Virus record (IMG/VR): IMGVR_UViG_3300034104_003735
Span: 1-45,906 of that record
From: a virus
Strand: one strand, 5' to 3'
DNA length: 45,906 bases
The position numbers were made by a program, and so were the translations under genes. Under the pieces are notes generated by a model. That model saw only the letters and a program-made list of their open reading frames with translations, searched no databases and was not told the origin of the DNA. This document shows positions 193 to 45,594 of the stretch, one piece after another (position 1 is the first letter of the stretch; each line of letters starts with the position of its first letter).

Positions 193-414
193 ATGTCAAA
201 CGAACAAACAAACACAACTGATACACCTAAGCCGATCTCAGTCTTGATCTATCGGGCCTTCGCGCCACGTAGGGTCGACGAACTCTCCAAAGCACTCGCC
301 ATCGTGCTTCAACACAGCACGCAGGACTGCTTTGCCGAGATCATCACTCCCACCATGACACTAACATTCCGTTGCAACATGCCAATCACCGTCAAGACTC
401 CGACGCTTCGCTAG
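193..414 (+). CDS. Hypothetical early protein, 73 aa
   Basis: A short soluble protein with no recognisable domain. It has a polar N-terminus rich in Asn and Thr and a mixed helical/strand body. The ATG follows an A/C-rich leader (AACAACAAAAAGCAAC) with no Shine-Dalgarno sequence, the leader type seen before several other genes here. Its TAG stop abuts copy 1 of the dispersed palindrome, and the last base of the stop is the first base of the repeat. Function unknown. Confidence 0.6.
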   Translation: MSNEQTNTTDTPKPISVLIYRAFAPRRVDELSKALAIVLQHSTQDCFAEIITPTMTLTFRCNMPITVKTPTLR

Positions 415-438
415 TTGGCTTAAGTAGCTTTAGCCAAC
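414..438 (+). repeat. Dispersed palindrome, copy 1
   Basis: Left arm GTTGGCTTAAG, centre TAG, right arm CTTTAGCCAAC. The arms pair at 10 of 11 positions. It begins on the last base of the preceding stop codon. Other copies lie at 4507, 10817, 16924, 38295, 43885 and 45570, with weaker ones at 23407 and 30701. Confidence 0.8.
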
Positions 439-477
439 AGCAGACGCGCTGGTGCGCAAAATGATCGAAAGAACCTT

Positions 478-505
478 TTGACATTTGGCGCGTCTGCGCT
501 AAGGT
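478..505 (+). promoter_or_regulatory. Promoter candidate P1
   Basis: TTGACA (478-483), a 16-base spacer and TAAGGT (500-505). The block AAAGAACC lies two bases upstream of the -35. The same block, spacing and a related -10 occur at 3109-3146. An ATG starting a 10-codon ORF (513-545) lies 7 bases after the -10. The next gene of normal size starts at 600. The rest of 439-599 shows no convincing gene. Confidence 0.5.
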
Positions 506-599
506 GTCCTCGATGCGGAAGCCATGGGTGTTCGCATCATGTTAGTTGTTGTTGTTCGGGAATTGCACGTGGCCCCGTTAACCGTGCAGCTTTTTGTAT

Positions 600-1034
600 A
601 TGCAAACATTTTTACCCTTTGCAAATTTTGATAAGTGCGCGAGCGTCTTGGACAACAAGCGACTCGGCAAGCAACGTGTTGAGACGTTGCAGATTTTCAA
701 TGCGTTAGGTGGAAAAAGCAAAGGCTGGACAAACCATCCAGCTGTTCGCATGTGGCGTGGCTATGAAAGCGCGCTGTTCCAGTATCAAGTTGCCACAGTT
801 CGTGAGTGGCAACAAAGAGGATTTCAAGATACGTGTTTGCACAAGACGGCCCAGGCCTTCGGTGTAACGCGTGAGAATTTGGAGGAGAAGATGAGCGGCC
901 CGATGCCACCATGGCTCGGCATGTTCGAACTCCATCAAAGCCATAGGTCGAATCTAGTTCGCAAGGACTGGACGCACTATGGTCAGTTTGGTTGGCCCGA
1001 AGATGGCACGTTGCCATACGTCTGGCCAGTGTAA
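600..1034 (+). CDS. MSMEG_6728-like protein, probably related to pyrimidine-dimer DNA glycosylases
   Basis: Length is 144 aa. The sequence carries the hallmarks I associate with the MSMEG_6728 family: an N-terminal MQTFLPF, a LDNKRLGKQRVE motif at about residues 17-28, NHPAVRMWRG at about 45-54, and a C-terminal segment with HRSNLVRKD and PYVWP. The family resembles the T4 endonuclease V fold by its basic helix and conserved Arg/Glu pattern, so a role in DNA repair or DNA end processing is plausible, though that link is inference. I chose ATG 600, where the family N-terminus begins, over TTG 594. There is no Shine-Dalgarno sequence. Confidence 0.75.
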   Translation: MQTFLPFANFDKCASVLDNKRLGKQRVETLQIFNALGGKSKGWTNHPAVRMWRGYESALFQYQVATVREWQQRGFQDTCLHKTAQAFGVTRENLEEKMSGPMPPWLGMFELHQSHRSNLVRKDWTHYGQFGWPEDGTLPYVWPV

Positions 1035-1059
1035 AGGTAACAAGCAAACAAGCAAAGCC

Positions 1060-1254
1060 ATGAAGAAAACATATCCAGTCGCCCATGTCCGTGATAACAC
1101 ATTTGAGCCGCGCGAAGCCGAATGGCGCGCGAAGCTCGGCCTCAGTCAGCACTGCCCAAAGAACGTGTCGACAAAGTGCGTTGCCAAACGTGCCATGCTA
1201 GTGTTCACCGTCGTCGCTACAATCATCCTCGTCGCTATCGCTTATGTTCTCTAA
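1060..1254 (+). CDS. Small tail-anchored membrane protein, 64 aa
   Basis: A polar N-terminal half is followed by one hydrophobic segment at residues 45-64 running to the C-terminus, the pattern of a tail-anchored inner-membrane protein with its bulk in the cytoplasm. The start at ATG 1060 follows an A/C-rich leader (AACAAGCAAACAAGCAAAGCC). Earlier in-frame codons would overlap the preceding gene. The last 11 bases overlap the next gene. Function unknown, possibly host take-over or superinfection exclusion by analogy with small early phage membrane proteins. Confidence 0.6.
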   Translation: MKKTYPVAHVRDNTFEPREAEWRAKLGLSQHCPKNVSTKCVAKRAMLVFTVVATIILVAIAYVL

Positions 1255-1627
1255 GTCAGACTATGTCAAACCACCCTATCGCCTTCTTGAAGAGGGCGAG
1301 CGGGTGATGGATGGTGATATTGCACACAGCATGAACTATCCACCAGGACTTCATTGGCTTAAAATCTCCAGCAAGTTCCCAATCTACAAAGGCGACCGCG
1401 AACAGTTTAAGAACGTCGTTTATACAACAACTAGACCACCATGTACAAAAAATGCAAATGGTGCAACGGCACCGGACGTGACAGAACAGATCCCCACTAC
1501 CGCTGCGCAGACTGCGACGGACTTGGAGACGTTTCCACCTGTGACAACTGTGGAAGAGCATTTGAACGATGCGATTGCGAGTCTTCAAATCGCCCTGAAG
1601 ATGCTGAACGAAAACAAGAAGAACTGA
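1244..1627 (+). CDS. Hypothetical protein with Thr/Ala/Pro linker, 127 aa
   Basis: The N-terminal ~60 residues look like a small globular domain (YRLLEEGERVMDGDIAHSM, then GLHWLKI), of the kind seen in small phage proteins of unknown function. Residues ~62-100 are a low-complexity Thr/Ala/Pro linker. The C-terminus is an amphipathic helix (VEEHLNDAIASLQIALKML). Bases 1441-1627 also encode the N-terminal part of the next gene in another frame, so its second half is overprinted. It overlaps the preceding gene by 11 bases. Function unknown. Confidence 0.6.
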   Translation: MFSKSDYVKPPYRLLEEGERVMDGDIAHSMNYPPGLHWLKISSKFPIYKGDREQFKNVVYTTTRPPCTKNANGATAPDVTEQIPTTAAQTATDLETFPPVTTVEEHLNDAIASLQIALKMLNENKKN

Positions 1628-1650
1628 TCTATGAACCCGAAGAAACTTAA
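1441..1650 (+). CDS. DnaJ-type zinc-finger-like small protein, 69 aa
   Basis: Contains CxxCxGTG at C5/C8, CxxCxGLG at C22/C25, then C34/C37 and C44/C46. Two CxxCxGxG repeats are the signature of the DnaJ central zinc domain and of small phage zinc-binding proteins. An acidic tail follows. The ATG follows an A/C-rich stretch (CAACAACTAGACCACC) typical for this genome. Some 187 bases overlap the 3' part of the upstream gene in a different frame. The cysteine pattern makes it very likely real. The partner or substrate is unknown. Confidence 0.7.
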   Translation: MYKKCKWCNGTGRDRTDPHYRCADCDGLGDVSTCDNCGRAFERCDCESSNRPEDAERKQEELIYEPEET

Positions 1651-2762: not shown

Positions 2763-3078
2763 CGGCATTGTTTATTACGTTCCGGTCAAACGCTTTAACG
2801 CATTAGTCTCTCTCTTCCTTCAACACAACAAAATCGCCATGTTACTCTTCAAACGCATCGCCACTCCGCATCCAGAATCTGGCTACATCGTTTCCATCGA
2901 CAATTTCATTACCCAGTCCATGCACTTGCCAAACTTGCGCGAAGCCGACCTTCCATTCATTGATCGTCAAAACGATTCCATGTTGATTCAAGATCGCTTT
3001 CCACACCTCACGCCGGACGAACGAGAATTCCTCATCTCTGGCCTGACGCCAGACGACTGGGAAGCTCTTCGCCTCTGA
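2734..3078 (+). CDS. Hypothetical protein, 114 aa
   Basis: Begins MSLLPYATPDG after the leader CAACCATTAACAACC, which fits the A/C-rich rule here. Composition is that of a soluble alpha/beta protein. The C-terminus has a LTPDEREFLISGLTPDDWEAL helix resembling small phage proteins that bind a partner through a terminal helix. No family recognised. It ends about 30 bases before promoter P2. Confidence 0.6.
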   Translation: MSLLPYATPDGIVYYVPVKRFNALVSLFLQHNKIAMLLFKRIATPHPESGYIVSIDNFITQSMHLPNLREADLPFIDRQNDSMLIQDRFPHLTPDEREFLISGLTPDDWEALRL

Positions 3079-3118
3079 ACGCTATCTCAATGTTCTTTCA
3101 CAAACAGCAAAGAACCCT

Positions 3119-3146
3119 TTGACTTCCTGCCCGTCCCGCCTAAGAT
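3119..3146 (+). promoter_or_regulatory. Promoter candidate P2
   Basis: TTGACT (3119-3124), 16-base spacer, TAAGAT (3141-3146), with AAAGAACC (3109-3116) two bases upstream, the same arrangement as P1 at 468-505. The ATG of the next gene (3154) is 7 bases after the -10, so the transcript would be leaderless or nearly so. Confidence 0.6.
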
Positions 3147-3153
3147 AAACCCC

Positions 3154-3450
3154 ATGCAAGCACCAGCTATACCAGCTCTCGGCAGAGGCATTTGGCGCGA
3201 GCCAAAGAACACTGACCTTCACGCTTACAAGCAAGAAGCAATGTTCGGAAATCTCCGACCGCACAAAACAAACGGTGTAATGACCCTTTGTCAAGTAGTT
3301 GGAACCGGAGACTGGGTCTTCGTTCATGCCGACAACATCGAACCAATCCGAGTAATCACTGCTCGCAACAAACCTCCTGCTCCTTCCAAACCTGTCCGTC
3401 CCGCCTCCGAAGCCCGCATCGTTGCCAACATTCTTGACGGACTTCTTTAA
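3154..3450 (+). CDS. Hypothetical protein, 98 aa, probably from a leaderless mRNA
   Basis: A central stretch of beta-strand-like sequence (VMTLCQVVGTGDWVFVHADNIEPIRVI) resembles a small barrel. A Pro/Ala-rich segment and a C-terminal helix (EARIVANILDGLL) follow. No family recognised. The start lies 7 bases downstream of the -10 of P2, so it is probably the first codon of the transcript. Bases 3451-3605 after it hold no gene that I can see, only the A/C-rich leader of the following gene. Confidence 0.65.
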   Translation: MQAPAIPALGRGIWREPKNTDLHAYKQEAMFGNLRPHKTNGVMTLCQVVGTGDWVFVHADNIEPIRVITARNKPPAPSKPVRPASEARIVANILDGLL

Positions 3451-3605
3451 CCTCCAACCCGGCTGCGCCAGTCGCAATTCCTTCGAGCACAACCGCTCAA
3501 CAAAACCTCGCTACTGAGCGCAGCCATTAAATTTCGGGAAGCACTTACGCCTCCCAAACGTCGGAGCACGACACGCCCAACAACTCAAACCCAAAACAAA
3601 ATAAC

Positions 3606-4244
3606 GTGTATACTGAATCCAACTCCAAAGTCGTCAGCAACAACAGCCTCGGCTTTGCCCTCAAAGTCCGCGTCCCCGCTGACTACGCTACGTTCGATGC
3701 CATCTTCGGCAAAGACTCTGCGCTGAACCTCGCCATCACCCACGTGCTCTATCACGTTTGGAACGGCCAGTTCCGTGAAGCCTTCGCTGCCAAGCTCTCC
3801 GAGCGTACCGGTATCGAGATCCCCACCGTTGACGGCACCGAAGACGGCGAACTGATCTCCGAGACCAAATACCTCGCCTACGTTCTCGCTCAGAAGGACG
3901 CCGAAGGCAAGCCCGTCATCTCCCAGGCTGACGTCTCCGCCCTCGCTGCTGAGGTCGCTGCCTCCATTGAAAACCTCCAGCCCCGTCAGTCCACCCGTGG
4001 CACTGGCACCCGCACTAAGGAAGTCAAGGAAGCCGGCACCCGCATCTTCAACAGCATCCAGAACGGCGAGCGCGCCCTCGAGGACTTCATCGCCAAGTGG
4101 GAAGCCGCCAACCCTGGCAAGGTGTTCGCCCAGCTCGGCGATACCAGCGACGTCAACACCTTCATCGACGCCGTGCATATCAACTCTCTGCGCATCGCCG
4201 CCGAGATCAAGCGCCAGCAGCAGGAAGCCGCCAGCCTCCTGTAA
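3606..4244 (+). CDS. Conserved-looking phage protein, 212 aa, probably highly expressed
   Basis: Likely GTG start (GTG TAT ACT) behind a long A/C-rich leader (CAACTCAAACCCAAAACAAAATAAC) like that of the single-strand-binding protein and capsid genes. Codons end strongly in C, a mark of high expression. The protein is helical, Ala/Glu-rich and soluble. A VPADYATFDAIFG segment, a central ISQADVSALAAEVAASIE helix and a basic C-terminal helix ending KRQQQEAASLL are visible. No catalytic motif seen. Synteny ahead of replication genes suggests an early or middle DNA-associated protein, which is inference. Confidence 0.65.
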   Translation: MYTESNSKVVSNNSLGFALKVRVPADYATFDAIFGKDSALNLAITHVLYHVWNGQFREAFAAKLSERTGIEIPTVDGTEDGELISETKYLAYVLAQKDAEGKPVISQADVSALAAEVAASIENLQPRQSTRGTGTRTKEVKEAGTRIFNSIQNGERALEDFIAKWEAANPGKVFAQLGDTSDVNTFIDAVHINSLRIAAEIKRQQQEAASLL

Positions 4245-4310: not shown

Positions 4311-4514
4311 ATGGAACTCTACTTGCTCGTCAATCCCTACGGCGAAACCGCCCTCAAAGAAAAGCTCTCTCCCGAAGATCGTCAGCTTGAAGCCGACGGT
4401 GAACTCGAAATCTACAAGCTCACTTCCGTTTCCGACATCACTGTCGAGCGTGCAACTTACGATTCCGAAGACTCCGAAGGTTCCTTCACCGCTCTCGAAA
4501 AAGAAGTCAGCTAA
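4311..4514 (+). CDS. Small acidic hypothetical protein, 67 aa
   Basis: Starts MELYLLVNPYGETALKEKL after CCACCTACCACT, again an A/C-rich leader. It is strongly acidic in the second half (DSEDSEGSFTALEKEVS) and might be a DNA-mimic or partner-binding protein, but nothing specific supports that. Its TAA stop (4512-4514) lies inside the left arm of palindrome copy 2. Confidence 0.55.
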   Translation: MELYLLVNPYGETALKEKLSPEDRQLEADGELEIYKLTSVSDITVERATYDSEDSEGSFTALEKEVS

Positions 4515-4531
4515 AGTAGCTTTAGCCAACC
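4507..4531 (+). repeat. Dispersed palindrome, copy 2
   Basis: Left arm GTCAGCTAAAG, centre TAG, right arm CTTTAGCCAAC. The stop codon of the upstream gene is embedded in the left arm. It leads directly into the multi-hairpin element at 4530-4738. Confidence 0.8.
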
Positions 4532-5222: not shown

Positions 5223-5471
5223 ATGAGCGCGAAACCATTGGCTAACGACTTCACCGAGATCCTGCTGCTTATGGAGGAACTCGGTGGGAGGTTTACAAAG
5301 ACGCTGACGCAACTGTATTTCTATGCAGATCTGCACAACAAACACATCATTCGCGAAGCGTTCGCAGATGAGTTTGACAGATACGATTCACTTCTTACCA
5401 TAAGAAAAGGAACAACAAGAGAAAACCCATATGCCCCGAATCTACACAGAGGATCTAAAAGAACTCCCTGA
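5223..5471 (+). CDS. Hypothetical helical protein, 82 aa
   Basis: A helical protein with aromatic and Leu-rich helices (EILLLMEELGGRFTKTL, then QLYFYADLHNKHIIREAF) resembling small phage proteins of unknown role. I chose ATG 5223 because it follows an A/C-rich leader. An in-frame ATG at 5190 would add 11 residues. The 3' end overlaps the next gene by 41 bases. Confidence 0.5.
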   Translation: MSAKPLANDFTEILLLMEELGGRFTKTLTQLYFYADLHNKHIIREAFADEFDRYDSLLTIRKGTTRENPYAPNLHRGSKRTP

Positions 5472-5976
5472 CATTCCAGATCGCTTTGGCGAAAAGAACT
5501 GGAGACGCTTCGAGCCAATCATCAAAGAAGTCATCAAGCGTTTCCCTGAGCCAGTCGTTTTCGTTCCGAAGAACATCGCTCCGATCACTGCTGTCTCCCG
5601 TATTCGTGACGCTGTTCGTGCGTTCTTGCATCCGACAAACAACTGGGAAAGCGAGATTGACCCTGCGCAAATCTTCAGTATCTGGCCTCAGGTGAATATC
5701 AAGATCGCTAACAAAACCCACGTTGCCATCGGACTAGAGCGTGAGCTTCTTGGCTTCAAAGTCGAGGACAAGATCGAGCGCATTCAGGAGACAGGTTTTG
5801 TGGACGCCACGAACACCGAGCTTTTCTTCGCTCTTCTGTGCTGCAAACATTTCGAACTGTTTGCACAACCTTTCAACATTCTCAACGCTACCGAGGAACA
5901 AGTCCATGAAGGTTCCATGCGCTATCCCAACGCGCCAATGGTTGATAATGGAGATGGCAGTTACACTCTGATATGA
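5431..5976 (+). CDS. Hypothetical protein, 181 aa
   Basis: A soluble alpha/beta protein with no recognised family. Visible segments are a basic/aromatic NWRRFEPIIKEVIKRFP helix, a VSRIRDAVRAFL helix and a C-terminal ...MVDNGDGSYTLI. Its ATGA end overlaps the next gene, marking the same operon. The N-terminal 41 bases overlap the previous gene in another frame. Function unknown. Confidence 0.6.
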   Translation: MPRIYTEDLKELPDIPDRFGEKNWRRFEPIIKEVIKRFPEPVVFVPKNIAPITAVSRIRDAVRAFLHPTNNWESEIDPAQIFSIWPQVNIKIANKTHVAIGLERELLGFKVEDKIERIQETGFVDATNTELFFALLCCKHFELFAQPFNILNATEEQVHEGSMRYPNAPMVDNGDGSYTLI

Positions 5977-10816: not shown

Positions 10817-10841
10817 GTCGGCTAAAGTTGCTTTAGCCAAC
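10817..10841 (+). repeat. Dispersed palindrome, copy 3
   Basis: Left arm GTCGGCTAAAG, centre TTG, right arm CTTTAGCCAAC. It lies 4 bases after the SSB stop codon, about 45 bases before the ParB/methyltransferase gene. The arms pair at 10 of 11 positions. Confidence 0.8.
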
Positions 10842-10886: not shown

Positions 10887-12428
10887 ATGTCTGACAAAAT
10901 CCTTCCATACACTTTAACGAAAGACCACGCGCTTGGCGCTGGTGAAATCAATATCGACGCACTGTTCGTCGGTAACCGTATCCGCTCTACGACGACGGAA
11001 GATCTCAAGTACATTCAGGAAGAGCTGGTACCTTCCATCGGACAGCATGGTCTAATTCATCCTATCACTGTCACATGGAATGACGTTGAGAATCGCTTTG
11101 AACTGATCGCTGGTTGGAATCGTCTCCAGGCTTTCAAGATCCTTGGCTACAAGAGCATTCCGTATTCGCTGCGCGAAGCGATGAGCGAAGATGATCTCAT
11201 GCGGTTGGAGATCGAGGAGAACATTCGTCGCAAGGAAATGCGCTGGCAGGATAAGGTGCTTGGCGTCTATCGCGTGCATTGCTTTGAGTCTGAAAAAGCT
11301 GCTGCTCGCCACACGAATTGGACGCTTCAGGCCACGGGCAAGATCCTCGGCGTGACCGCTGCGTCGATTTCCTATATCCTGCCGATTGCCAAGGCTCTGC
11401 TGGACAAGGATGAAGAGGTGATGAAGTGTGAGAATCACACAGCTGCTTACAAACTGCTGCTTCGTCGCAAGGAAGCAGAAGCTTTGAAGCTGTTGCATGA
11501 GCGCACGAAGCCAGGCTCAACGACAGAGCCGGCCAAGATTACATCGACTACGTCGCTGACCAAACCTTCCGCTGTGCAGATCGCTAAGAAGGAAGCGGAG
11601 AGTGGCGTGCTTGGCGGTGACGACATGGACTTCGACATCCTGCCTTCGACTGCTACGATCATGGCTGCACAGACTCGTGCAACTGACTCGCTCGTCAAGC
11701 AGAAGATTCCGCTCAGCGAACGTCTTATCAATGCTTCGTGCCTTGACTGGATGGAGCAGTGCAAGCCTGGTATGTTCGATCTCATCTATACCGATCCTCC
11801 GTTCGGCATTGACATGAAGATGCTTGATAACGTTCAGGGCATCGAGATCGTTGAGAAGTCCCATCATGTGGACGAGAACCTGTGGCTGCTTGAGCGTCTC
11901 ATGCCGCTGGCCTACAAAGTGCTCAAGGATGATTGCCATATGTTCATGTGGTATGATATCGTGCATCAGGAAAAGCTCACGGCCTGGGCCACGGCTGCTG
12001 GCTTCAAGGTTCAGAACTGGCCGTTGCTGTGGCTCAAGCCTGCTGGCGAAGCCAAGAACGATGCGTCATATCGCAACTTCACCAAAGCCTGCGAATACAT
12101 CATGGTGCTGCACAAAGGTGAGACAACACTGCGTAAACCACACGCCGTCAACTGGTGGATTGCTAGCGTTAAGGGTGAGCGTAATCAACAGCTCAATCCT
12201 TTCCTCAAGCCTTTCAGCATCTCGAAAGAACTCATCGAGTCCAGCATTGTGCCAGGCATGAAGATGCTTGACTGTTTCGCTGGCGGTGGTTCACTTGTTC
12301 GTGCTGCGGTCAACCTCGGCATCGAAGCATACGGCATCGAGAAAGACAAAGACCAGTTCCCTGCGCTGTATGAAAGCATCAAGTCGACGTATGTTGACAT
12401 CACCGGAGGCAACGTTGAATTCTCATGA
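10887..12428 (+). CDS. ParB-like nuclease-domain / DNA methyltransferase fusion
   Basis: At 513 aa, residues ~20-120 form a ParB/Srx domain (FELIAGWNRLQAFKILG at 71-87 matches the GERRxxA box, and ENIRRKEMRW at 111-120 the second box), followed by an HTH-like TGKILGVTAASISYIL (150-165). Residues ~270-510 are an N6-adenine or N4-cytosine methyltransferase with DPPFG at 303-307 and FAGGG at 464-468, in the motif order IV then I (beta-class). Such proteins methylate DNA, probably to protect phage DNA from restriction or to mark it. Overlaps the next gene by ATGA. Confidence 0.85.
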   Translation: MSDKILPYTLTKDHALGAGEINIDALFVGNRIRSTTTEDLKYIQEELVPSIGQHGLIHPITVTWNDVENRFELIAGWNRLQAFKILGYKSIPYSLREAMSEDDLMRLEIEENIRRKEMRWQDKVLGVYRVHCFESEKAAARHTNWTLQATGKILGVTAASISYILPIAKALLDKDEEVMKCENHTAAYKLLLRRKEAEALKLLHERTKPGSTTEPAKITSTTSLTKPSAVQIAKKEAESGVLGGDDMDFDILPSTATIMAAQTRATDSLVKQKIPLSERLINASCLDWMEQCKPGMFDLIYTDPPFGIDMKMLDNVQGIEIVEKSHHVDENLWLLERLMPLAYKVLKDDCHMFMWYDIVHQEKLTAWATAAGFKVQNWPLLWLKPAGEAKNDASYRNFTKACEYIMVLHKGETTLRKPHAVNWWIASVKGERNQQLNPFLKPFSISKELIESSIVPGMKMLDCFAGGGSLVRAAVNLGIEAYGIEKDKDQFPALYESIKSTYVDITGGNVEFS

Positions 12429-16613: not shown

Positions 16614-16932
16614 ACTTCGCAATCTTCCTCATGCAATCTTTATTGACGAATGCGAAGTCTCTCCTCCGCTTATTTATGAAGCACGTTACAAACTCTCAAT
16701 CCCTCTGATTGGCTACGACCGTAAAGCATACACACATGTTCTCATTCGATCTTTCAACAGTAAGAAGAAACAAAGTGTTTCAATCTACGGACTAAACGAA
16801 AAAAAGCAACTCGACTCTGACATCGAATTGCCTGGAAGTGTTGAAGGAACCATTAGCCATTTCCGAGCGTTAGAACTCGCTGGCTATGACTACGTTCTTT
16901 CAGAAGACCCGTTTATTGACGAAGTCGGTTAA
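16582..16932 (+). CDS. Hypothetical protein, 116 aa
   Basis: Begins MSSQQIITLSELRNLPHAIFIDECEVSPP, a mixed alpha/beta protein with a basic middle (RSFNSKKKQSVSIYGLNEKKQL) and an acidic end. No family recognised. Its 5' part overlaps the previous gene by 32 bases, and its TAA (16930-16932) lies inside palindrome copy 4. I chose ATG 16582, the first in-frame ATG that gives a plausible N-terminus. Confidence 0.6.
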   Translation: MSSQQIITLSELRNLPHAIFIDECEVSPPLIYEARYKLSIPLIGYDRKAYTHVLIRSFNSKKKQSVSIYGLNEKKQLDSDIELPGSVEGTISHFRALELAGYDYVLSEDPFIDEVG

Positions 16933-16948
16933 AGCTACTTTAGCAAAC
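16924..16948 (+). repeat. Dispersed palindrome, copy 4
   Basis: Left arm GTCGGTTAAAG, centre CTA, right arm CTTTAGCAAAC. It contains the stop codon of the gene before it and ends 4 bases before the ATG of the ATPase gene, so it must be part of that gene's leader. Confidence 0.78.
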
Positions 16949-16951: not shown

Positions 16952-18190
16952 ATGAAAAGTTTCCTAGAAAATTACGAAGCGTTCACTTCTGGTAACGAAT
17001 GCCCTAAGGTGTATCACACCTGGGGCGGCCTTGCTGCGATCTCGAACTTGGTGTCAGGGCGAGTCTGGACAGATGGTGGTATCTACATGGTTTTTCCAAA
17101 CATGTATATCATCTTTGTCGGTGAGCCTGGAGCCAAGAAAAGCACAGCCATGCGGTTGTCGCATCGCGTGATCGCAGAGTTCAAAAAGATTGCATATGCT
17201 CCAGCGAGTATTACGAAGGAAGCATTGGTGCAAATGATGGCGAAAGAAGATTCACCTTGTAAGTTGGCTTTCCGCTATCAAGACAAGCCTGTGTTTTTCT
17301 CGCATCTTAGTATCTTTGCGAGCGAGCTTATTAACTTGATCAACGCTGGTGGCAATCCTGGTGGCATGATTGACTTCTTCACAGATGTATGGGATCGCTG
17401 CGATAGCGAGTTCCGTGAGACGACGAAGAACAAAGGTGACAACACTATCGTGCGACCATTCATCTCTATCACTGGATGCATGACAAACGACACCGTTAAG
17501 ATGCTGCAAAGCTTGAAGATTATTTCTTCAGGCATGACGCGTCGGTGCTTGTTCATCCATGGCGACTTGGCTGAGAAGCCAGTTGCATTTCCTGACGTGA
17601 CAGAAGAACAGCGAGAGGCTTTCAAGAATCTTGTTGCGCTTGGCGTCAAACTGCAGAATGTTTGCGGAGAATTCGCATGGGAGAACGAAGCCAGGCAGAA
17701 GTATGAAGAGTTTTATCATATGGTATGGCAGCAGAAACGAAAAGAGAGCAGCACGATCTTGAAGCAGTTTCTGGAAACAAAGCCAGAATACGTCATCAAG
17801 GTTGCCATGCTGCTCTGGCTTAGTGAACGATCAGACTCACTTGTCCTTACTGCTGAGAACGTGGTTAAGTCTTATAACCTTGTTACCAGTGTGGAGAAGG
17901 GTGGCGCTCTGTTGTTCGAGGGTGCTGGTCGTAACCAGCTATCTGCCATTGCTCAGGGTATCTACTCTGCTGTGCTTCGTCAACCAAAACAGATGATGCC
18001 AGTCAAGATGGTCTATCACATCTTTCAGAAAGATGCGACCATCGACGAGATCAAGAAGATCTTGGAGGACGAAGTTATCACAGAGCGACTGAGTCCAATC
18101 CTCAAACTGAAGGAACTTCCTGGCGAGTGGATTACCACTTATGAGAACTTCCAACGGATGAAGAAGGAAATTCCTACTGCCAAGCAGTAA
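16952..18190 (+). CDS. P-loop ATPase, DUF3987-like primase/helicase type
   Basis: At 412 aa a hydrophobic strand MYIIFVGEPGAKKSTAM gives Walker A (GEPGAKKST, residues 57-65). FISITGCM and FASELINLINAGG precede a sensor-like SGMTRRCLFI segment. The pattern is that of DUF3987-type ATPases, thought to act as the helicase half of phage primase-helicases. No primase domain is visible here. ATG 16952 follows palindrome copy 4 by 4 bases. The last 17 bases overlap the converging giant gene on the other strand. Confidence 0.65.
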   Translation: MKSFLENYEAFTSGNECPKVYHTWGGLAAISNLVSGRVWTDGGIYMVFPNMYIIFVGEPGAKKSTAMRLSHRVIAEFKKIAYAPASITKEALVQMMAKEDSPCKLAFRYQDKPVFFSHLSIFASELINLINAGGNPGGMIDFFTDVWDRCDSEFRETTKNKGDNTIVRPFISITGCMTNDTVKMLQSLKIISSGMTRRCLFIHGDLAEKPVAFPDVTEEQREAFKNLVALGVKLQNVCGEFAWENEARQKYEEFYHMVWQQKRKESSTILKQFLETKPEYVIKVAMLLWLSERSDSLVLTAENVVKSYNLVTSVEKGGALLFEGAGRNQLSAIAQGIYSAVLRQPKQMMPVKMVYHIFQKDATIDEIKKILEDEVITERLSPILKLKELPGEWITTYENFQRMKKEIPTAKQ

Positions 18191-21100: not shown

Positions 21101-24100
21101 CGTATGCCATACCGGAAATCCTAGGATACCTCGCAGCAAGCTGTTCAAGATAGACCATAGAGTTCGATGCAAACTCAGACATCTTCTGTCCTGTCGTCCT
21201 TGGCGTAGGTCCAACAAGATTCGGCCTAAAGTTTGATGCAAACGCATTTTCTTCTTCAATAATAGCCTTACCAAAGGCTTCGTCAACGGCTGAGATTTTT
21301 CCACTTGGCCAGTTACGCTGAGCTCGCTCAAGCGCATGTGCACTGTTCATACCTTTAACGGCATCAAATTGAGTTGTGCCATCACTAAATGTAATTTTTA
21401 CATATTGTGTAAAAGGATAATTTTGATCGCCAAAGTTTTTTGACCTTCCTTCTTTAGAGAATCCCATCAAAGAATCTGGAGTTCTCGCGTAAGAAGCTGG
21501 CCTTGCCTCCATGCCCTGCATCCTCAGAACACCGTCATCTCCAAGCACCAAATCCGATGCACGGATCATCGACATGCTTTGACTATCCGTCTCCAAAACC
21601 TGCGAACTCTCTGCCATCTTTGCATAGGCATCGTTCACAGCTTCCTTCACATTCTGATAGTAATCCGTAAGCCGACGAACGCCTTCTGTATTCAGCGCTC
21701 CAGCCTCGGTCGGCAGCTTGAACAGCGCACCTTTGACAGCACCAACGAGATCTCGGCCCCATTTAGCCAACGACCTGAACCAATCACGGACAGGTGTCGG
21801 TGACGAAGCGGCAAACAACTCCAGATCACCCTTCTTCGCAAGTTCTCCCATGGCCCACATAGCATGTGCGCTTGCCTCAAACTCTTCCACATTCTTGGGC
21901 TGCATCATTTCCTGCAACTCACGAATATTGCGCACACCTTGTGGCAACGTCTCAGCAAACTCACGCAGCACAGATGACCAGTTGCCCTGATTTTCCAGTG
22001 CCCAAGTCCTAAAGCCTTGACGTTTCTGCATGGCATCTGCCGACAGTAATCCGCTATTCGCAGCCTGCTCGATGTTATGACCAATCTCATGTGCCAGATT
22101 CAGTGTCCAGCTTGTGAGCTGCTCGTTCCTGCCACGCATAGCAAAATCACGTGCAGCACCGAGGTAAACCTTTCGTGCCAACCCGTTAATCGTGCTCATG
22201 CCCAGCAATTCCTGGCCGCCAATCAACGCATCGTTAATCAGCCTGCCAAACTGCACACCGTCAATGGGCAAAACCTCTTTCAGCCTAGCCAACAACGGCA
22301 TAGCAACGCGTTCAATCGCTTCGCCAGTCCATCCGCTACGCTCAAGCACACCACGTGTCAAACTCTCTAGCGTGAACTGCATCGACTCAAGCGGAGAACC
22401 GTCATTCAGCATGAAGCTCGTGCCTTCATTACTGATAATCCTCCAGTTCTCGCCGCTTGCCATACCAAACGGAGTCATCAACTTCAACTCGTTCTCAGTG
22501 AACTGTGCACGACGTTGCACTTCCCTGGCTTCAACCTCGCCAAAGGCACGACGATAGAACTCCAGCTTGGCAGTTTTCTCAGCCAAGCGCAGCGACATCC
22601 TAGTCTTAACCAGCTGTTGCACACGTTCAGCAAAGCCAGGCGTATCATAATAGACATTCCGCACGTTGTCACCAGACGCAAAGCCTTCAATGTTCTGAAT
22701 AGCATGTTGAAGCTCATGCAACAGCACACTCTTCACTTCATAACCTTTGTTAATCCGTGTAGCATTCAGCCAGATATGCGGCACTTCACCTTGACCGCTT
22801 TGAAAGTATCCAAGATACCTCTTCTTCGGTGCCTCACCAATGCGAACTTCCATATTCGCCAACTGAGGATAACGCTGATACAACTCACTATGTTCAAGCA
22901 GATCTTTCAACTTCATCGTTCCAGTCGGCAGCAGGCCTTCAATCCGCATTTTTGCACGGCTATCGTTGATCTCAAACCGCCATTTGCCATCTGGCCCAAG
23001 TAGCCAACCAGTCTCTTTCCAGATCTTCTGACGTTCAGACGTCGAAATCTCCGCATAGTTCTTCCTACCACGAGACATCCTCTCAGCTTTGATCAACGCC
23101 GTAACGTCACCACCGCCACGAGGCCCAGCCAGCAACGGACGGAACTCAGCCTTGCCAGCAGCAACTTGCTTGCCAATCTCTGCAATCTGAATCAACCGAT
23201 TCTGCATCGGCTTCGTCATGCCTTGAATAATAGTCCGGTCACCGCTCGTCAAGAAATCCCTGGCTTTCTGCATCACCTCAGGAGTCCAGAGCTTTTGAGC
23301 AACCTCAGGCAAACCCTTGATCTCCGTGGCCAACTGAGCCATTGCGCCATCAACCAGTTGGCTATCCACAGTTGTTGGAACTTCTTCCACCTTACCAGCA
23401 GTTTCAGTCGGCTTAAGCGGCTTAACGCCACTGGCAGCAGCAGCCTGTGCACGAACAGCTTTAAGCTCTTTGGCTGCCTGGACTTCGGCCAAGAACTCTT
23501 TAGACATCTCAGCGTTTGCTGGATCGCGAACAGCTTCGTCGATGATCTTCACGATGTTCTCGACGCTGCTGTCATTGCTAGCTTTGACGCGTTCTGCAAC
23601 GCGAGCACGCATGAGAGGAGAGTTTTTCAGAATGCCTGTGAGATCTTGAACAGTGACTTCCTTAACGAACTTCAAGGCTTCGTCAAGAACGACGTTGTTC
23701 ACAGCCTGCTCGTCAGGGTCTTTGGTGTCTTTGCCAATAACCTCATCGACGGCAGCCTTTGCTTTTGCACGTGCCTCTGCCTCGGCTTTCATTCGAGCCG
23801 CTTCTTCACGGATACGAGCAAGACGTTCTGCTGCCGTCTCGGTCGGCTTGGCGACTGGCGCAGGCTTTGGCGGCCCTTCAAGTTCAGCGGCTAGCGTCTT
23901 AGGAACAGCGACTTCGATGACGGTTTCCTGAACGTCTTTCAGCTTTGTGCGACCAGAAAGGAATGACTGAATGTCCTCTGGCGTTTTGATCGTGCCGTCT
24001 GCATGTGCCTTTTCCAGCGCAGCCAAATCACCATTGCGATCATTTGCACGAAGAGGTTCAAGAGACTTGCCAGTCTTATCGTTCAGAGCATCCAGCATAT

Positions 24101-26121: not shown

Positions 26122-27153
26122 TTAGTAGTTTTTCGGAATCGGGTAACCATAAGCATCCACTTCTCCAGCGATAGGAGGACTAACTGGGCGCGTTGTTGGT
26201 GGCTTAGTGCCAGCGCCAGCGTCTCCGATAAGATTTGCAAGCCAGTTTGCGATATTGTCCATCATCTGTCGCCCCGGCTGACCAATGACACGGCGAACGC
26301 CAGCAGTCAGCATATCAGCCGGAGTATAGCCTTCACCAGCTGCTTTTTGATAACCGAGCACACCGGTTGTATCCGGAGTCGGCGCAACGTAAGGAAGATT
26401 GTCATTTGTCGGTGCCGGTTCAATCGGGCCAACTACAACTTCTCCTTGTCGTGCATTAGCAATCGACTGATCAGCAGCCAGATTGTTAGCAAATGCCCTG
26501 AACATTTCCTGTTCAGACGCGCCAGGAGCCGTGCCAGCACCGAACTTAGCCGTCGATGGAACAGGCTGCTGAAAACCTCCGATGGGAACACCACCAGATG
26601 TCATAGGCGCATTTGCCATCATAGCACCGGAAAAGCCAACAGGCATTCCGTTCTGATCATATGCAACGCGAACATCGCTACCAGGTGTCTGAACAACCTT
26701 GCCGCGATTATCCGTCTGCATTGCGTTTGTGTCGTCAAAAGCTGTGCGAGTGCCAGACACACGCTGCTGCTCTTTCATCTGCTCGATCTGCGATTTCATG
26801 CCCGCAGGAACTGTGGAGCGCTGAGCATCAAGTGCAGCTTGACGAGCCGCGACAGAAGGACGATTTGGTCCAAACGCATCAAACCAAGCCAAGCCGGTCG
26901 GAGCGTTAGGATCTTCAATAGCACCACTCATTGTTCGACGAGTCATGCTTCGAGTGCCAGTGACAGGATTGACCTGACCTTGCTGCGCCTGCTTAAGCAG
27001 ATTCATCTGACCACCAAACAGAGCTTGCAGATCTTCCATCGTGGTGCCTTGAGCGGCTTTCTCACGCGCAATCTGCTCCTGCGTTTTGACGGTTGCGACA
27101 GGCCGATCTGTTGCAGTCGGCGTTGCATTTGGATTGTTAGTTTTCTCGGCCAT
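26122..27153 (-). CDS. Internal virion protein candidate, 343 aa
   Basis: A Thr/Ala/Pro/Gln-rich, low-complexity protein with TEKTNNPNATPTATDRP at the start, helices such as EKAAQGTTMEDLQALFGG, and a Gly/Pro-rich end. It lies directly upstream of the giant ejection protein in the late operon (10 bases between stop and start), so I infer a core or scaffold-like role in the virion. No enzymatic motif. The protein is probably partly disordered. Confidence 0.55.
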   Translation of the reverse strand: MAEKTNNPNATPTATDRPVATVKTQEQIAREKAAQGTTMEDLQALFGGQMNLLKQAQQGQVNPVTGTRSMTRRTMSGAIEDPNAPTGLAWFDAFGPNRPSVAARQAALDAQRSTVPAGMKSQIEQMKEQQRVSGTRTAFDDTNAMQTDNRGKVVQTPGSDVRVAYDQNGMPVGFSGAMMANAPMTSGGVPIGGFQQPVPSTAKFGAGTAPGASEQEMFRAFANNLAADQSIANARQGEVVVGPIEPAPTNDNLPYVAPTPDTTGVLGYQKAAGEGYTPADMLTAGVRRVIGQPGRQMMDNIANWLANLIGDAGAGTKPPTTRPVSPPIAGEVDAYGYPIPKNY

Positions 27154-28946: not shown

Positions 28947-29122
28947 CCGAGATCAGTTTCTTCTTTCAGTGTGTCGATTTTTGGATAGCGTGGCTCAGGT
29001 CGTTTTTCTCGCTCTGACACCATCTGCTTAACATTCTCAACCGTTGATGCGAACTTTACAGGCCCGCTAACCCCGGCGTAATCAAATTGGGAATTTTGAT
29101 ATAAGTTCGAGTCTGCTTCCAT
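28943..29122 (-). CDS. Hypothetical small protein, 59 aa
   Basis: A polar, acidic small protein (MEADSNLYQNSQFDYAGVSGPVKF, then a Lys/Arg/Glu/Pro-rich end) with no recognised domain. An ATG 15 bases further upstream is also possible. It overlaps the large tail gene's 3' end by ~67 bases in another frame, and the glycosyltransferase start by 4 bases. Unknown function, probably virion-associated by location. Confidence 0.4.
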   Translation of the reverse strand: MEADSNLYQNSQFDYAGVSGPVKFASTVENVKQMVSEREKRPEPRYPKIDTLKEETDLG

Positions 29123-31059
29123 AGATTGTATTTCCACTGTTCAATTTCAACACCGACCAAAACACGATAGCCACTGAGCATCATCGAGACATATACCGAA
29201 GCGTTTGGCACGCTTTCTGGAATGCTTTTCTCCAGCGCCCTTGTGAAATAAACGCCAGCCCATTGAGGGTCATCCCTGGTCATGATCGAGATTGTGAAGC
29301 CTGACGAGATCTCCACACAACGCCAAATGCATGGCGCCGAGTTCGTAATCAAACTGTTGTAGTTCAGACTACGCTGACCAAGCCTGGCCTTAAAGTCGTC
29401 AGTCATAAACTCATAGTTGAAACCAACTTGAGCAGAAAACGATGATGTATAGAACTGAAAAACTTCTGGAGCCAACGGCCTGTTTGGATGATATGTCGTA
29501 ATGACGTCAGCCGGCACAGTCAGCACCTGTCCAGGCTTTTCATTAAAACCGGAGATTGTTTTGGCAGTTGTTGCAGCCGATCCGCCAAGATAAAGTTGCT
29601 GCAAGTAATACTCATCACCAGGAGCTAGCCAACCAGGAAACTTATACTGAATGTTCCTCGTCGTTTTATAGCTCTTACCAAGCACTGCATCGTTCAGCGT
29701 TTTCCTTGTCTCAAGCACACGCAGATTGTCCATCTGCTTAGCTTCGATTTCAACTCGTGGCTCCTTCGTATACACAAAGCTAGCCTTATCACGAATGCGA
29801 CGAGTAATTGTCACAGCTTCATTCGTTTCCGGCTCGATCTCATAATCCACAAAATCTTGCCAGGCCGCGACATAAAAACGTGTGCGAAGCTTTGTGCCAA
29901 CTGCAATCTTTTTATCTTGAATTGCAACATCGAGATATGTCGCATTTGGGTTGTCGTTCGTTCCAACCACTTCAACTTTCTTCATTACCTGCGCCGCTTG
30001 CAAACTCGGCACCCAATCCCTCAACGTGATCTGCTCGGCACCGGCTGGAGTTACGATATTGATCTCGCTGCTCATGGCCCTTTCGCGAGTTTCAGCTTCC
30101 AAGCTCCAACCTTCCGTGTTAGACTTGCCACTGATAGCAGTATAGCCAGAACCGTAAGCTTGTGGAGGCGAGAACACTGTTGTTCCAATGTTGCCAGGCC
30201 CTCCGTAATTCGTGTGCGTGAGAATGACAAAAGTAAATGTGTTCAGCGGCCCCGGAAGAAAGTGATTAAACGTAAAAATATTACCAGTTTCCCACTGATA
30301 ACTGTAACCAACAGGAACGAAGATTGAGTTCAAAACAGCTTTGAAGGCATTCCAAAACTGTGTTGGCGTTGTAGATTCTTTAAGTTTTACCTGATTAGGT
30401 GTCGAATAATCGTCAACAAGCAGGCCAGGTTTAATATAAACATAGCAACTATGACCGATAGCATCGATACCGTTCTCGGTATAAGTAGCGCCCAATGACA
30501 CCATGTAGCCAGGAACAACTGAAAACTGTCCAAGATTATACGTGGCTTTTGCGGTTGCTTGCCCAGCAACTCGTTGCCGTTTTCTCAAAATGTCCAGTCC
30601 ACCAAAGCGCTCACTTGCTTGCTCAACATCGATCAGAAGCGGAAAACTTTCCATCGTCTCCGTCACTAGCATCTCATGATTCTGATCCATCCTCGCCCTA
30701 GTGGCGTTAAGTAGATTAAGCGAACCATCTGGAAGGGCTGTACCGGTTGGAACGACCTCACGCGTCTCACGAATCAACGAGCCGTCATCAGCTGTGCGAT
30801 AACGAAAGGTGATAGCCGCAGCGTTGACGTCGATCTGAACAAAACGATGGCGAGATTGTGTGTGATTACGCTCGTTGTAGACGTAAGGTTCAAACACGCC
30901 AAAAGTGCCCACGTCGGGTGCTGAGCCTTGTGGAATGGTTTCCTCATAAATAGCAAACGGAGCGCCAGCAAAATCTTTGCCGAATGAGCGCTGCTCAACC
31001 ATCACAAACTGGTTGCGCTGACTAGTAGGAAAACGATATGGCGTGTCGCGGTTTGGCAT
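29056..31059 (-). CDS. Large tail/virion protein of unknown type, 667 aa
   Basis: A beta-rich, soluble protein starting MPNRDTPYRFPTSQRNQF, with repeats of aromatic strands and few Cys. It lies two bases downstream of the connector-like gene, at the position of the tail nozzle (gp12-like) protein in T7-type podoviruses. That similarity is positional only. Weaker palindrome copy at 30701 lies inside it. No enzymatic motif was found. Confidence 0.55.
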   Translation of the reverse strand: MPNRDTPYRFPTSQRNQFVMVEQRSFGKDFAGAPFAIYEETIPQGSAPDVGTFGVFEPYVYNERNHTQSRHRFVQIDVNAAAITFRYRTADDGSLIRETREVVPTGTALPDGSLNLLNATRARMDQNHEMLVTETMESFPLLIDVEQASERFGGLDILRKRQRVAGQATAKATYNLGQFSVVPGYMVSLGATYTENGIDAIGHSCYVYIKPGLLVDDYSTPNQVKLKESTTPTQFWNAFKAVLNSIFVPVGYSYQWETGNIFTFNHFLPGPLNTFTFVILTHTNYGGPGNIGTTVFSPPQAYGSGYTAISGKSNTEGWSLEAETRERAMSSEINIVTPAGAEQITLRDWVPSLQAAQVMKKVEVVGTNDNPNATYLDVAIQDKKIAVGTKLRTRFYVAAWQDFVDYEIEPETNEAVTITRRIRDKASFVYTKEPRVEIEAKQMDNLRVLETRKTLNDAVLGKSYKTTRNIQYKFPGWLAPGDEYYLQQLYLGGSAATTAKTISGFNEKPGQVLTVPADVITTYHPNRPLAPEVFQFYTSSFSAQVGFNYEFMTDDFKARLGQRSLNYNSLITNSAPCIWRCVEISSGFTISIMTRDDPQWAGVYFTRALEKSIPESVPNASVYVSMMLSGYRVLVGVEIEQWKYNLWKQTRTYIKIPNLITPGLAGL
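30701..30725 (+). repeat. Dispersed palindrome, weaker copy inside the tail gene
   Basis: Left arm GTGGCGTTAAG, centre TAG, right arm ATTAAGCGAAC. It matches 20 of 25 positions of the common form and sits 7.3 kb from the copy at 23407 and 7.6 kb from that at 38295. It is inside coding sequence. Confidence 0.4.
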
Positions 31060-38294: not shown

Positions 38295-38319
38295 GTTGGC
38301 TTAAGCTACTTTAGGCGAC
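38295..38319 (-). repeat. Dispersed palindrome, copy 5
   Basis: Read on the minus strand: left arm GTCGCCTAAAG, centre TAG, right arm CTTAAGCCAAC. It fills the gap between the TGA of the preceding gene (38320-38322) and the terminase ATG, so it forms the 5' leader of terL. Its orientation follows transcription, as in the copies on the plus strand. Confidence 0.8.
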
Positions 38320-38937
38320 TCAGACAGTTGGTTCTGCTGCCACGGCTGTGGTTGTGTAGGAAAGATCGAGTTCGATCAGATAGTTACGAGTGACGACAGA
38401 CGGGTCGGAGATGAAGTCGTGGTCATCCATACGAACACGCGCAGGCTGACCAGAATTTCCTTGAGCGTCCCAAAGGCGTTTGAGCATCTTTGGAAGTTCG
38501 AGAAAGAAGTAACGGATATCTCCGGTTGTGCGGTTGGCTTGAGCGGCAGGTAACGTGTTCAAAGCTGGTGGCAGTCCAGTCAGCCCAGTGTTTTGAATGT
38601 TGAACCAAATGCGGTCAGGAACGCAAAGATTTTTAGTGATGCCGTTCGTAAAGGTCTTGTTTGTCTGCGTACCCTGCCAGGAGGCTTTGTCGGCCACGTT
38701 GAACGTGATGTAGTTCGTGGAAACTGTGACGTTTCGGATGTAGTAAATCGTGTTGGCAACGATACTGTCGAAGCTAGTGCTGAAAAAGATCGGGTCGTCG
38801 TTGCGAAGAAACTGGCTCATGCCCTCGCCATTCATCTTGAAAAGCGTGGTTGAGGTAGAGAGGACACTAATGACGATGCCGTTGTCAAGACGAGCACCAG
38901 CACCGAGCCAAGTTTGTGGTTTTGCGTCAAAGGCCAT
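38320..38937 (-). CDS. Structural protein candidate, 205 aa
   Basis: Begins MAFDAKPQTWLGAGARLDNGIVISVL, beta-rich and Thr/Asn-rich with a C-terminal strand (NYLIELDLSYTTT). It has the composition of a tail or decoration protein. ATG 38937 was chosen because it lies 4 bases after the previous stop. A longer start would overlap that gene by 47 bases. Function unknown, virion role inferred from location. Confidence 0.5.
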   Translation of the reverse strand: MAFDAKPQTWLGAGARLDNGIVISVLSTSTTLFKMNGEGMSQFLRNDDPIFFSTSFDSIVANTIYYIRNVTVSTNYITFNVADKASWQGTQTNKTFTNGITKNLCVPDRIWFNIQNTGLTGLPPALNTLPAAQANRTTGDIRYFFLELPKMLKRLWDAQGNSGQPARVRMDDHDFISDPSVVTRNYLIELDLSYTTTAVAAEPTV

Positions 38938-38941
38938 AAAG

Positions 38942-39601
38942 TTAACGATCGTCGCGATCTTTGATGATTGTTGTGTGATTGCCTTCACACAAACGTGAAA
39001 TCACCCAACCGAGTTGGTGTGGTTTGTTTGAAAGCGGGCCATCCAGCGCAAGCGAAACTTTTGGATGCCTGGCTGAAATCCAGTTAGAAAGAGCGACTTC
39101 GTCACAACGCCAGTCGTTTCCGTCGACTTCAATCTCACGAATGTAATCGACGAGATCAAGACCGCCAACGCGCGTAACAGCGCAACGGCCCATGACTGTC
39201 AGTGGACGGCGCGAAGGGCAATGCCAAATAAGGACATCGTTTTTGACAGCAAGTGAAGCAGCTGCAAGCCGATCTTCACGGGCTGGAACCTCTGGCGTAT
39301 CCATACCACGAAACCATGTCCAGTCATATCCGAGTTCGCCACCAAGGTAACGCCACATATGTCGCGCGTAGCCCAACTCCGGCGACGTGACGTCAAAAAC
39401 TCGAGTTGTGGGACCCACTGGCACAGACATGCCTGGCTCGCGAAAGACCAGTATATCGTAACCCTCTTGTCCGTTGATGACGAACTCAGAAAAACTGCGA
39501 AGGTGCTTGTTAGCATCGAACCGATCCGACATGTAGGCGCAGACAGAGATAGCACGGTCGTGCTTCTTCTCGCCTGATACATGTTGGAAAGAGAGTTTCA
39601 T
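38942..39601 (-). CDS. Glycosyltransferase-like protein, 219 aa
   Basis: Residues ~95-140 read WTWFRGMDTPEVPAREDRLAAASLAVKNDVLIWHCPSRRPLTVMGRCAVTR, a pattern I recall from a nucleotide-sugar transferase family in which a DxD-like 'RDxDS' (here RGMDT) precedes a REx-helix, 'WHxPSxRP' and a Gly-Gly motif. The sequence is plausible for a sugar transferase, but the match is not certain. It sits between two structural genes and starts by ATGA overlap, so a virion or host-surface modification role is likely. Confidence 0.45.
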   Translation of the reverse strand: MKLSFQHVSGEKKHDRAISVCAYMSDRFDANKHLRSFSEFVINGQEGYDILVFREPGMSVPVGPTTRVFDVTSPELGYARHMWRYLGGELGYDWTWFRGMDTPEVPAREDRLAAASLAVKNDVLIWHCPSRRPLTVMGRCAVTRVGGLDLVDYIREIEVDGNDWRCDEVALSNWISARHPKVSLALDGPLSNKPHQLGWVISRLCEGNHTTIIKDRDDR

Positions 39602-43794: not shown

Positions 43795-43884
43795 AGGCGG
43801 TTTCGGAAAGGCGCGAGTAGTAAAATGTAATTCTTTTCAGCCTACGAACCTGTGTAACTCTTACGCACCTCGGCCCGTGGCCCA

Positions 43885-43909
43885 GTCGCCTTAAGCTGCT
43901 TAAGCCCAC
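43885..43909 (+). repeat. Dispersed palindrome, copy 6
   Basis: Left arm GTCGCCTTAAG, centre CTG, right arm CTTAAGCCCAC. It lies in the divergent non-coding region, about 90 bases from the late promoter, not next to a stop codon. Downstream bases 43911-43960 repeat GCGTCTAA/GCGTCTAG-like units. Confidence 0.75.
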
Positions 43910-44233: not shown

Positions 44234-44344
44234 GGAACAGTGGCTAGTGCGAGCGAACTGGCGCGAAGATGGTAGCAATACCGGAGCGAATAGCGGCGCG
44301 ATGATGCACGGCCAAAGTGTGAATGTTTGTAATGTTTGGACATT

Positions 44345-44391: not shown

Positions 44392-44438
44392 CAGTCCGGA
44401 CATAAAGTTCGGCAAGCAACAACGAACAAACAACAAAC

Positions 44439-44660: not shown

Positions 44661-44672
44661 GCAGACACACGG

Positions 44673-44699
44673 GGCAGGCAGCAACCCTGCTTGCCTGCC
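44673..44699 (+). terminator. Hairpin after the 44439 gene
   Basis: Arms GGCAGGCA (44673-44680) and TGCCTGCC (44692-44699) are a perfect 8-bp stem with an 11-base loop, 12 bases after the stop. It has no U-tract. A closely related stem follows the next gene at 45227-45258. Confidence 0.5.
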
Positions 44700-44745
44700 T
44701 CGTAGTCTGGCCATAAGGCTAGAAAACAACAAACAAACAACAAAC

Positions 44746-45219
44746 ATGAAAACGACACACACCTATGCAATCAAGAGCTTCGGCAATACGACGGCAATTG
44801 ACCGGGAGATCGACATCTCCTGGCCTGAAACGTTGGATGCTTTCGTGGCGAACGTGCCCGGAGGAGCGGAGCGGGTTTACAGCCTCCTGCGCGGTTTCGT
44901 GGCGGCGCACCACGTCCAGAGCAAGGTTAAGTCGGCATTCGGTGCCGAAAAGCCTAGTGATGAACAGCGCAAGCTGATCAACGCGGTAAAGGATGAGGAA
45001 GTGCTCACTGGCGTGGACTTCGTGCCGGGCGAGCGTGGCAAGGAGGATGAAGTTGTTAAGAAGATTCGTGCAGCCGACGGCGACGGTAAGCTCACCGCGG
45101 AAAAAATCGACGAGCTGGCAACCCGCTGGGGCGGCCATGCGAACGATGCAGAGGAACTGATCGAAGTTTATCTCGCCTGGAAAAAGCGCCAGGCCATGAG
45201 CAAAGACCTGGGACTGTAA
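44746..45219 (+). CDS. Hypothetical early protein, 157 aa
   Basis: The ATG at 44746 follows a leader of repeated AACAAAC units. The N-terminus is beta-rich (MKTTHTYAIKSFGNTTAI), the middle helical (AERVYSLLRGFVAAHH), and a Lys/Asp/Glu-rich region leads to a C-terminal helix (AEELIEVYLAWKKRQAM). No family recognised. An earlier in-frame ATG at 44509 would overlap the 44439 gene over 150 bases and is rejected. Confidence 0.65.
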   Translation: MKTTHTYAIKSFGNTTAIDREIDISWPETLDAFVANVPGGAERVYSLLRGFVAAHHVQSKVKSAFGAEKPSDEQRKLINAVKDEEVLTGVDFVPGERGKEDEVVKKIRAADGDGKLTAEKIDELATRWGGHANDAEELIEVYLAWKKRQAMSKDLGL

Positions 45220-45226
45220 TGGAAGT

Positions 45227-45258
45227 CGGCAGGCAGGGCGGCAACGTCTTGCCTGTCG
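45227..45258 (+). terminator. Hairpin after the 44746 gene
   Basis: Arms CGGCAGGCA (45227-45235) and TGCCTGTCG (45250-45258) pair over 9 bp with one G-T, a 14-base loop. It is similar in sequence to the stem at 44673-44699, again without a U-tract, and starts 7 bases after the stop. Confidence 0.5.
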
Positions 45259-45322
45259 GATTCCGGGACAACCGGACGGTGCGTTAAACGCGCCTAACAA
45301 CAACAACAAACAACACAACACT

Positions 45323-45553
45323 ATGTCACACTGGAGCTGGAACGAAGAAGAAGCCAAGAAGTGCAGTGCCGCGCGGAAACGCGCCCAAGGCCGTGTCAAA
45401 GAAATCTTTGGCGCAGTCCTGGCGTCTGCCGCAATCGGCATCGGCCCAAGAAGCGTGCTGGAAATCGCCGATAGTGGCGAAAACGACAAGCGCGTGCCCA
45501 ACAGCCGTGCCGCTCTCGAGGCCCAAAAGGTCGCTGATATTCTCGGCCTATAA
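45323..45553 (+). CDS. Hypothetical early protein, 76 aa
   Basis: MSHWSWNEEEAKKCSAARKRAQGR begins after a leader rich in AACAACAAC and CAACACAACACT. The middle is Ala/Ile/Gly-rich (AVLASAAIGIGPRSVLEIA) and the end helical (AALEAQKVADILGL). No domain recognised. Palindrome copy 7 follows 16 bases after its stop. Confidence 0.6.
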   Translation: MSHWSWNEEEAKKCSAARKRAQGRVKEIFGAVLASAAIGIGPRSVLEIADSGENDKRVPNSRAALEAQKVADILGL

Positions 45554-45569
45554 ACGCTCAAAGCGCCCG

Positions 45570-45594
45570 GTCGCGTTAAGTAGCTTAAGCCAAC
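45570..45594 (+). repeat. Dispersed palindrome, copy 7
   Basis: Left arm GTCGCGTTAAG, centre TAG, right arm CTTAAGCCAAC, 16 bases after the stop of the 45323 gene. On a circular map it is only 750 bases from copy 1. Confidence 0.75.

Follow-up and report, generated by a model that had tools for sequence, protein, structure and literature searches.

The virus record IMGVR_UViG_3300034104_003735, analyzed over its entire 45,906 bp (here, the window), carries nine copies of a 25-bp palindrome and a gene for a protein that joins a ParB domain to a DNA methyltransferase (Table 1). The palindromes have an 11-3-11 layout and the consensus GTYGGCTWAAG-YWR-CTTWAGCCRAC. A symmetric scoring matrix was built from the seven strong copies, with 50 dinucleotide-preserving shuffles as the null. 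The nine sites score from 40 down to 20.2 against a shuffle maximum of 14.0 (n = 50), and the next-best position, 26987, reaches 10.8; one refinement of the matrix accepted this candidate and another did not. When the consensus GGCTAAAGTAGCTTTAGCC was searched with at most 3 mismatches, 6 matches were found in the window versus 0 in 100 shuffles. The nine palindromes are far beyond chance, as shuffled genomes, set beforehand as the control that could refute the family, never match them. An initial annotation of this DNA had listed seven clear and two weaker copies. All nine are confirmed at 25 bp each, with the register of the second lying one base earlier (4506, not 4507) and the supposedly weak copies, 23407 and 30701, scoring clearly above the shuffles.

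The same annotation had named the protein encoded at 10887, which has a ParB domain, as a possible binder, and what it lacked is that this protein is a ParB-methyltransferase fusion. Pfam identifies PF02195 (ParB_N, E 4e-9) and PF01555 (N6/N4 methyltransferase), the latter part of a beta-class N6/N4 DNA methyltransferase at about residues 270 to 513. In profile searches of the PDB, the ParB region matches Noc, Spo0J, and ParB, with the alignment to Noc running through the helix-turn-helix (HTH) region, while the rest of the protein matches CcrM, MboIIA, and HpyAVI-type enzymes. A structure model agrees: the ParB region is modeled at a predicted local distance difference test score (pLDDT) of 93, its best PDB matches being Noc bound to its Noc-binding site (NBS), then ParB and KorB, and the methyltransferase half has fold matches to CcrM, MboIIA, and HpyAVI. 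Predicted helices at 147-154 and 158-172 form the HTH and are followed by another at 184-207. The methyltransferase has motif IV (TDPPF) ahead of motif I (DCFAGGGS), which is the beta-class order (DPPY/F, FxGxG/S). The half-site letters GCTAAA/TTTAGC resemble the OB operator motif of KorB, with their order reversed here.

Table 1. Palindromic sites and the proposed cognate gene in the window
Feature	Position	Strand	Context
Site 1	414..438		At the stop codon of a 73-aa open reading frame (ORF)
Site 2	4506..4530		Overlaps the end of an 85-aa ORF
Site 3	10817..10841		ParB-methyltransferase gene begins 45 bp downstream
Proposed cognate protein, 513 aa	10887..12428	+	ParB_N CTPase, ParB/Noc-like DNA-binding domain, linker, methyltransferase
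Site 4	16924..16948		Precedes the likely start codon of the primase (ATG, 16952) by 3 bp
Site 5	23407..23431		Within the 2645-aa ORF 18174-26111
Candidate weak tenth site	26987..27011		Within ORF 26122-27153; would divide a 7.3-kb gap
Site 6	30701..30725		Within ORF 29056-31059 (667 aa)
Site 7	38295..38319		Fills the space that separates the start of the terminase from ORF 38320-38988
Site 8	43885..43909		Intergenic
Site 9	45570..45594		Intergenic

The long ORF that surrounds site 5 lies on the minus strand and probably encodes a large virion protein, with relatives in 20 of the 36 site-bearing genomes described below. Elsewhere in the window, a glycosyltransferase group 1 domain protein (PF00534; 27990-28946, minus strand) is encoded amid structural genes, and a DUF6378 protein (PF19905; 16146-16613, plus strand) has few relatives among these phages. 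A tRNA scan of the window gave no matches.

Site families in related phages

To place the window sites among those of other phages, 79 related loci were gathered by a terminase search and further genomes were collected through the ParB-methyltransferase gene, with two subgroup alignments as queries. A blind palindrome finder and the same analysis were applied to both sets. Many relatives have families with the same 25-bp odd-centered geometry and another sequence, such as GTCCGGTTCTTTTTGAGAACCGAAC, GTGCGTATCACTTTCTGATACGCAC, and AACAATTTCAATGATTGAATTTGTT, and strong copies of GCTATGTCCCAAATTGGGACATAGC are found around the circular genome of Desulfofustis phage LS06. With refined matrices, we find 330 sites in 36 complete or near-complete genomes of at least 37 kb, at 7 to 15 per genome. 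Across these genomes the geometry of the sites is fixed and their sequence differs from lineage to lineage. Absence of the motif from related phages, also set beforehand as a possible refutation, is not what is seen: geometry and dispersion persist, while the exact sequence changes. An exact-pattern scan of viral contigs gave no further copy of the window sequence, as expected from lineage-specific sites, and a DNA-level search of phages had no matches. Repeats in one further genome (G055) were rejected as dispersed sites, being local tandem repeats. No such palindrome family was found in Tiera, Kuura, and PaP2, which are relatives by replication module.

The sites are spaced more evenly than uniform placement predicts (Fisher p 1.7e-28 over the 36 genomes) and more evenly than if their positions had been drawn from gene boundaries (p 2.6e-43, with 30 of 36 genomes below 0.05), the median largest gap between them being 8.2 kb. 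As the genomes are related, these p-values overstate independence, although each lineage has its own site sequence. For 148 of the 330 sites, most of the length falls outside ORFs of at least 70 aa, versus 26 expected. Since sites occupy the gaps between genes, they often adjoin stop or start codons; the association with stop codons in the initial annotation is true locally, but it is not the organizing rule. Some copies are inside long genes. Of 19 genomes, 7 have a site within 300 bp upstream of the terminase start, versus 1.3 expected, and 13 of 36 have one after the primase, versus 2.4 expected.

Placement near stop codons, together with arms that could pair into a stem with a 3-nt loop, would suit RNA hairpins acting as terminators or as the 3'-end processing signals that had been suggested. 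However, independent arms would be expected to give 61 compensated changes and only 25 are observed, the outer GT...AC and the bases at the center are conserved, copies also occur within genes, an Rfam scan of the window gave no matches, and, as shown below, site sequence co-diverges with a DNA-binding domain. We consider an RNA role extremely improbable, and the uncompensated arm changes uphold the earlier preference for recognition by a factor over a mere hairpin. The copies adjoining the terminase, and a replication module common to all 36 genomes, could also indicate packaging, replication-start, or recombination sites. This too is very unlikely: a relative of the window terminase was not detected in 17 of the 36 site-bearing genomes, which speaks against the packaging sites proposed earlier; polymerase, primase, Sak4, and exonuclease are present in relatives without sites; a tyrosine integrase (PF00589) was not found in 33 genomes, where nothing found points to lysogeny; and the copies are many and even rather than one or two.

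Co-occurrence and co-divergence of sites and fusion

Among the window genes, the fusion alone is present in 36 of 36 palindrome-bearing genomes and in none of the three comparison phages, Tiera, Kuura, and PaP2. Polymerase, primase, Sak4, and exonuclease are shared by these three as well. An objective check used a relabeled-alphabet null, with called sites masked. Palindrome families exceed the null maximum in 34 of 45 fusion-bearing genomes versus 0 of 9 without a full fusion (Fisher p 3.2e-5), and the 99% null threshold in 37 of 45 versus 1 of 9. Two uncharacterized early genes of the window (5431-5976 and 3606-4244, both plus strand) recur in 24 and 23 of the 36 site-bearing phages, respectively, and were not found in Tiera, Kuura, and PaP2; they are possible partners of the ParB protein.

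Co-divergence was analyzed in the 31 genomes with odd geometry, scanning 348 protein windows across five phage proteins. Distances between inner half-sites track residues 139-174 of the fusion, which contain the HTH (r = 0.60, the top of the 348 windows), while those between outer half-sites track residues 181-216, containing the next helix (peak r = 0.55 at 181-210). In partial Mantel analysis given the remaining backbone, the inner half-site correlates with the HTH (0.46) and not with 181-216 (-0.18), whereas the outer half-site correlates with 181-216 (0.385) and not with the HTH (0.007). The two windows coincide with the predicted HTH (147-172) and the helix after it (184-207). This co-divergence is strong but indirect evidence for pairing of fusion and site, and together with the co-occurrence it indirectly supports the ParB protein as the putative binder. 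The cognate protein is very probably the product of 10887-12428.

These results bear on the earlier proposal that the palindromes are stoperator-like, and on their being repressor sites of another phage regulator. The stoperators of Cluster A mycobacteriophages are likewise many, dispersed, biased to short intergenic gaps, and specific to phage or lineage (PMC9283540). In contrast to the symmetric, evenly spaced dyads described here, they are 13 bp long, lack symmetry, are oriented with transcription, and are each recognized by a repressor acting as a monomer (PMC9283540). Moreover, no window gene other than the fusion occurs in every palindrome-bearing genome while being missing from the comparison phages, the co-divergence peak falls in the ParB HTH, and a search of 33 genomes gave no tyrosine integrase, which leaves such a regulator highly unlikely.

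Among members of the fusion family, AGxRR-like and ENxxR motifs are kept in nearly all, and most retain DPPY/F and the S-adenosylmethionine (SAM)-binding motif. The LS06 fusion has a weak PF17762 match (E 0.04). In G050, the fusion (ORF 2857-4092, L364) keeps its ParB motifs, its methyltransferase motifs are unrecognizable, and the genome retains 7 sites; persistence of the sites next to a degenerate methyltransferase points to the ParB half as the binder. Searches of bacterial genomes with the ParB-methyltransferase gave no relative or gave methyltransferases without the ParB part, and plasmid matches cover mainly the methyltransferase half.

Several observations weigh against pairing of the sites with a fusion that methylates DNA. 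The inner half-site correlates with distances in Sak4 and exonuclease too, at partial r 0.335 and 0.27, so an effect of common descent is not entirely eliminated; the choice of the two ParB windows followed the scan, and residue-level covariation (mutual information) is weak among the 31 sequences. The list of 36 genomes was curated by eye. Even-length dyads in G036, G040, G042, and MW202489 (L141) mean that half-site spacing has changed at least once. Eight fusion-bearing genomes (G020, G021, G004, G028, G033, G037, G048, and Mel-JY34) have no family above the 99% null, although G004 and Mel-JY34 have weak palindrome candidates, and the control set without a full fusion comprises only nine genomes, among which G054 passes the 99% threshold. 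Finally, several members have a changed motif IV (DIPY, DSPY, and DFPY) and G050 has lost it, so methylation cannot be essential everywhere. The nucleotide is less certain as well, since ParB-fold fusions can bind CTP, ATP, or GTP (PMC12704722).

A putative clamp loaded at dispersed sites

Taken together, these data make it probable that the palindromes are specific DNA sites, comparable to parS, NBS, or OB, at which the phage's own ParB-methyltransferase fusion loads in the manner of Noc or KorB. One dimer would occupy each site, the ParB HTH reading the inner half of an arm and the following helix the outer half, as the co-divergence suggests. Going by its homologs Noc, ParB, and KorB (PMC8429893 and PMC11790492), the fusion would load at a site, bind nucleotide, shut into a clamp, and slide over flanking DNA; such spreading along phage DNA is probable by analogy. 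A site every 3 to 8 kb would bring the entire phage genome within reach of a clamp.

Of known systems, the closest structural match is Noc of Bacillus subtilis nucleoid occlusion, likewise a ParB-fold CTPase with an HTH and sites scattered over the genome (PMC8429893). Noc differs in being bacterial, membrane-binding, and without a methyltransferase, and NBS are 16 bp, whereas the sites here are about 25 bp, phage-borne, and different in every lineage. KorB of plasmid RK2 belongs to the ParB-family CTPase clamps, matches the fold, and slides far after loading at its operators, but it represses together with KorA and lacks a methyltransferase (PMC11790492). ParABS systems (Spo0J/ParB-parS, including phage and plasmid versions) share the ParB fold, the CTPase motifs, and palindromic sites, and canonical ParB has a C-terminal dimerization domain where the fusion has its methyltransferase. 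Partition sites had been offered as one option in the initial annotation. While the likeness to partition stands, true partition is unlikely, as a ParA-type ATPase (PF13614) had no match in 33 genomes, with 14 of 14 control genomes positive. The even dispersal of the sites is a further difference from ParABS.

What the loaded fusion does is the least certain step. In most of the phages the clamp would carry a methyltransferase, so that marking or protecting the phage's own DNA is a likely output, with methylation itself plausible. We tentatively suggest a nucleotide-gated sliding methyltransferase, possible rather than probable, in which evenly seeded loading sites would let clamps sweep the DNA and mark it as self, so that specificity would come from the lineage-specific sites and not from the methylated sequence alone. 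It is also quite possible, if not yet probable, that the bound fusion serves long-range transcription regulation, as with KorB or VirB, or organization of phage DNA during replication, the methyltransferase being accessory or mainly a dimerization domain. Retention of ParB motifs and sites in G050, and of ParB motifs where motif IV varies, argues for such a role, as do the sites at gene boundaries, upstream of the terminase, and after the primase; KorB, for its part, can act by sliding on promoters as much as 1.5 kb away (PMC11790492). Conservation of DPPY/F and the SAM-binding motif in most members argues against it, and even spacing and the two window sites within long genes are unexpected for operators alone; nor was a KorA-like partner identified, though no search was aimed at one. 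Given the motif IV variation and the loss in G050, self-marking and an output that is architectural or regulatory in the manner of KorB are of similar likelihood.

The architecture of the fusion is itself known. Phage fusions of a ParB-CTPase to an N6_N4 methyltransferase (Kaljevic et al. 2025, PMC12704722) and a Bacillus cereus ParB-methylase (cited in PMC5512222) have the same domain pairing. Such fusions are reported to be frequent in phages and are suggested to have anti-defense or phage-host roles; in the portions of PMC12704722 consulted no DNA target was found for them, and the word palindrome is absent from its main text. The Bacillus cereus ParB domain is cited in PMC5512222 as a non-specific nickase. 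Within the open-licence literature, in the portions available, no report of cognate dispersed sites for ParB-methyltransferase fusions was found.

ParB-methyltransferase fusions, which are common in phages, now have a concrete candidate DNA target in dozens of these viruses, with putative ParB sites distributed at even intervals along an entire viral genome and no ParA found. The roughly 30 pairs of sites and DNA-binding domains form a natural data set for decoding ParB specificity. If the clamp does carry methylation, DNA would be modified by territory and not only by a short recognition sequence.

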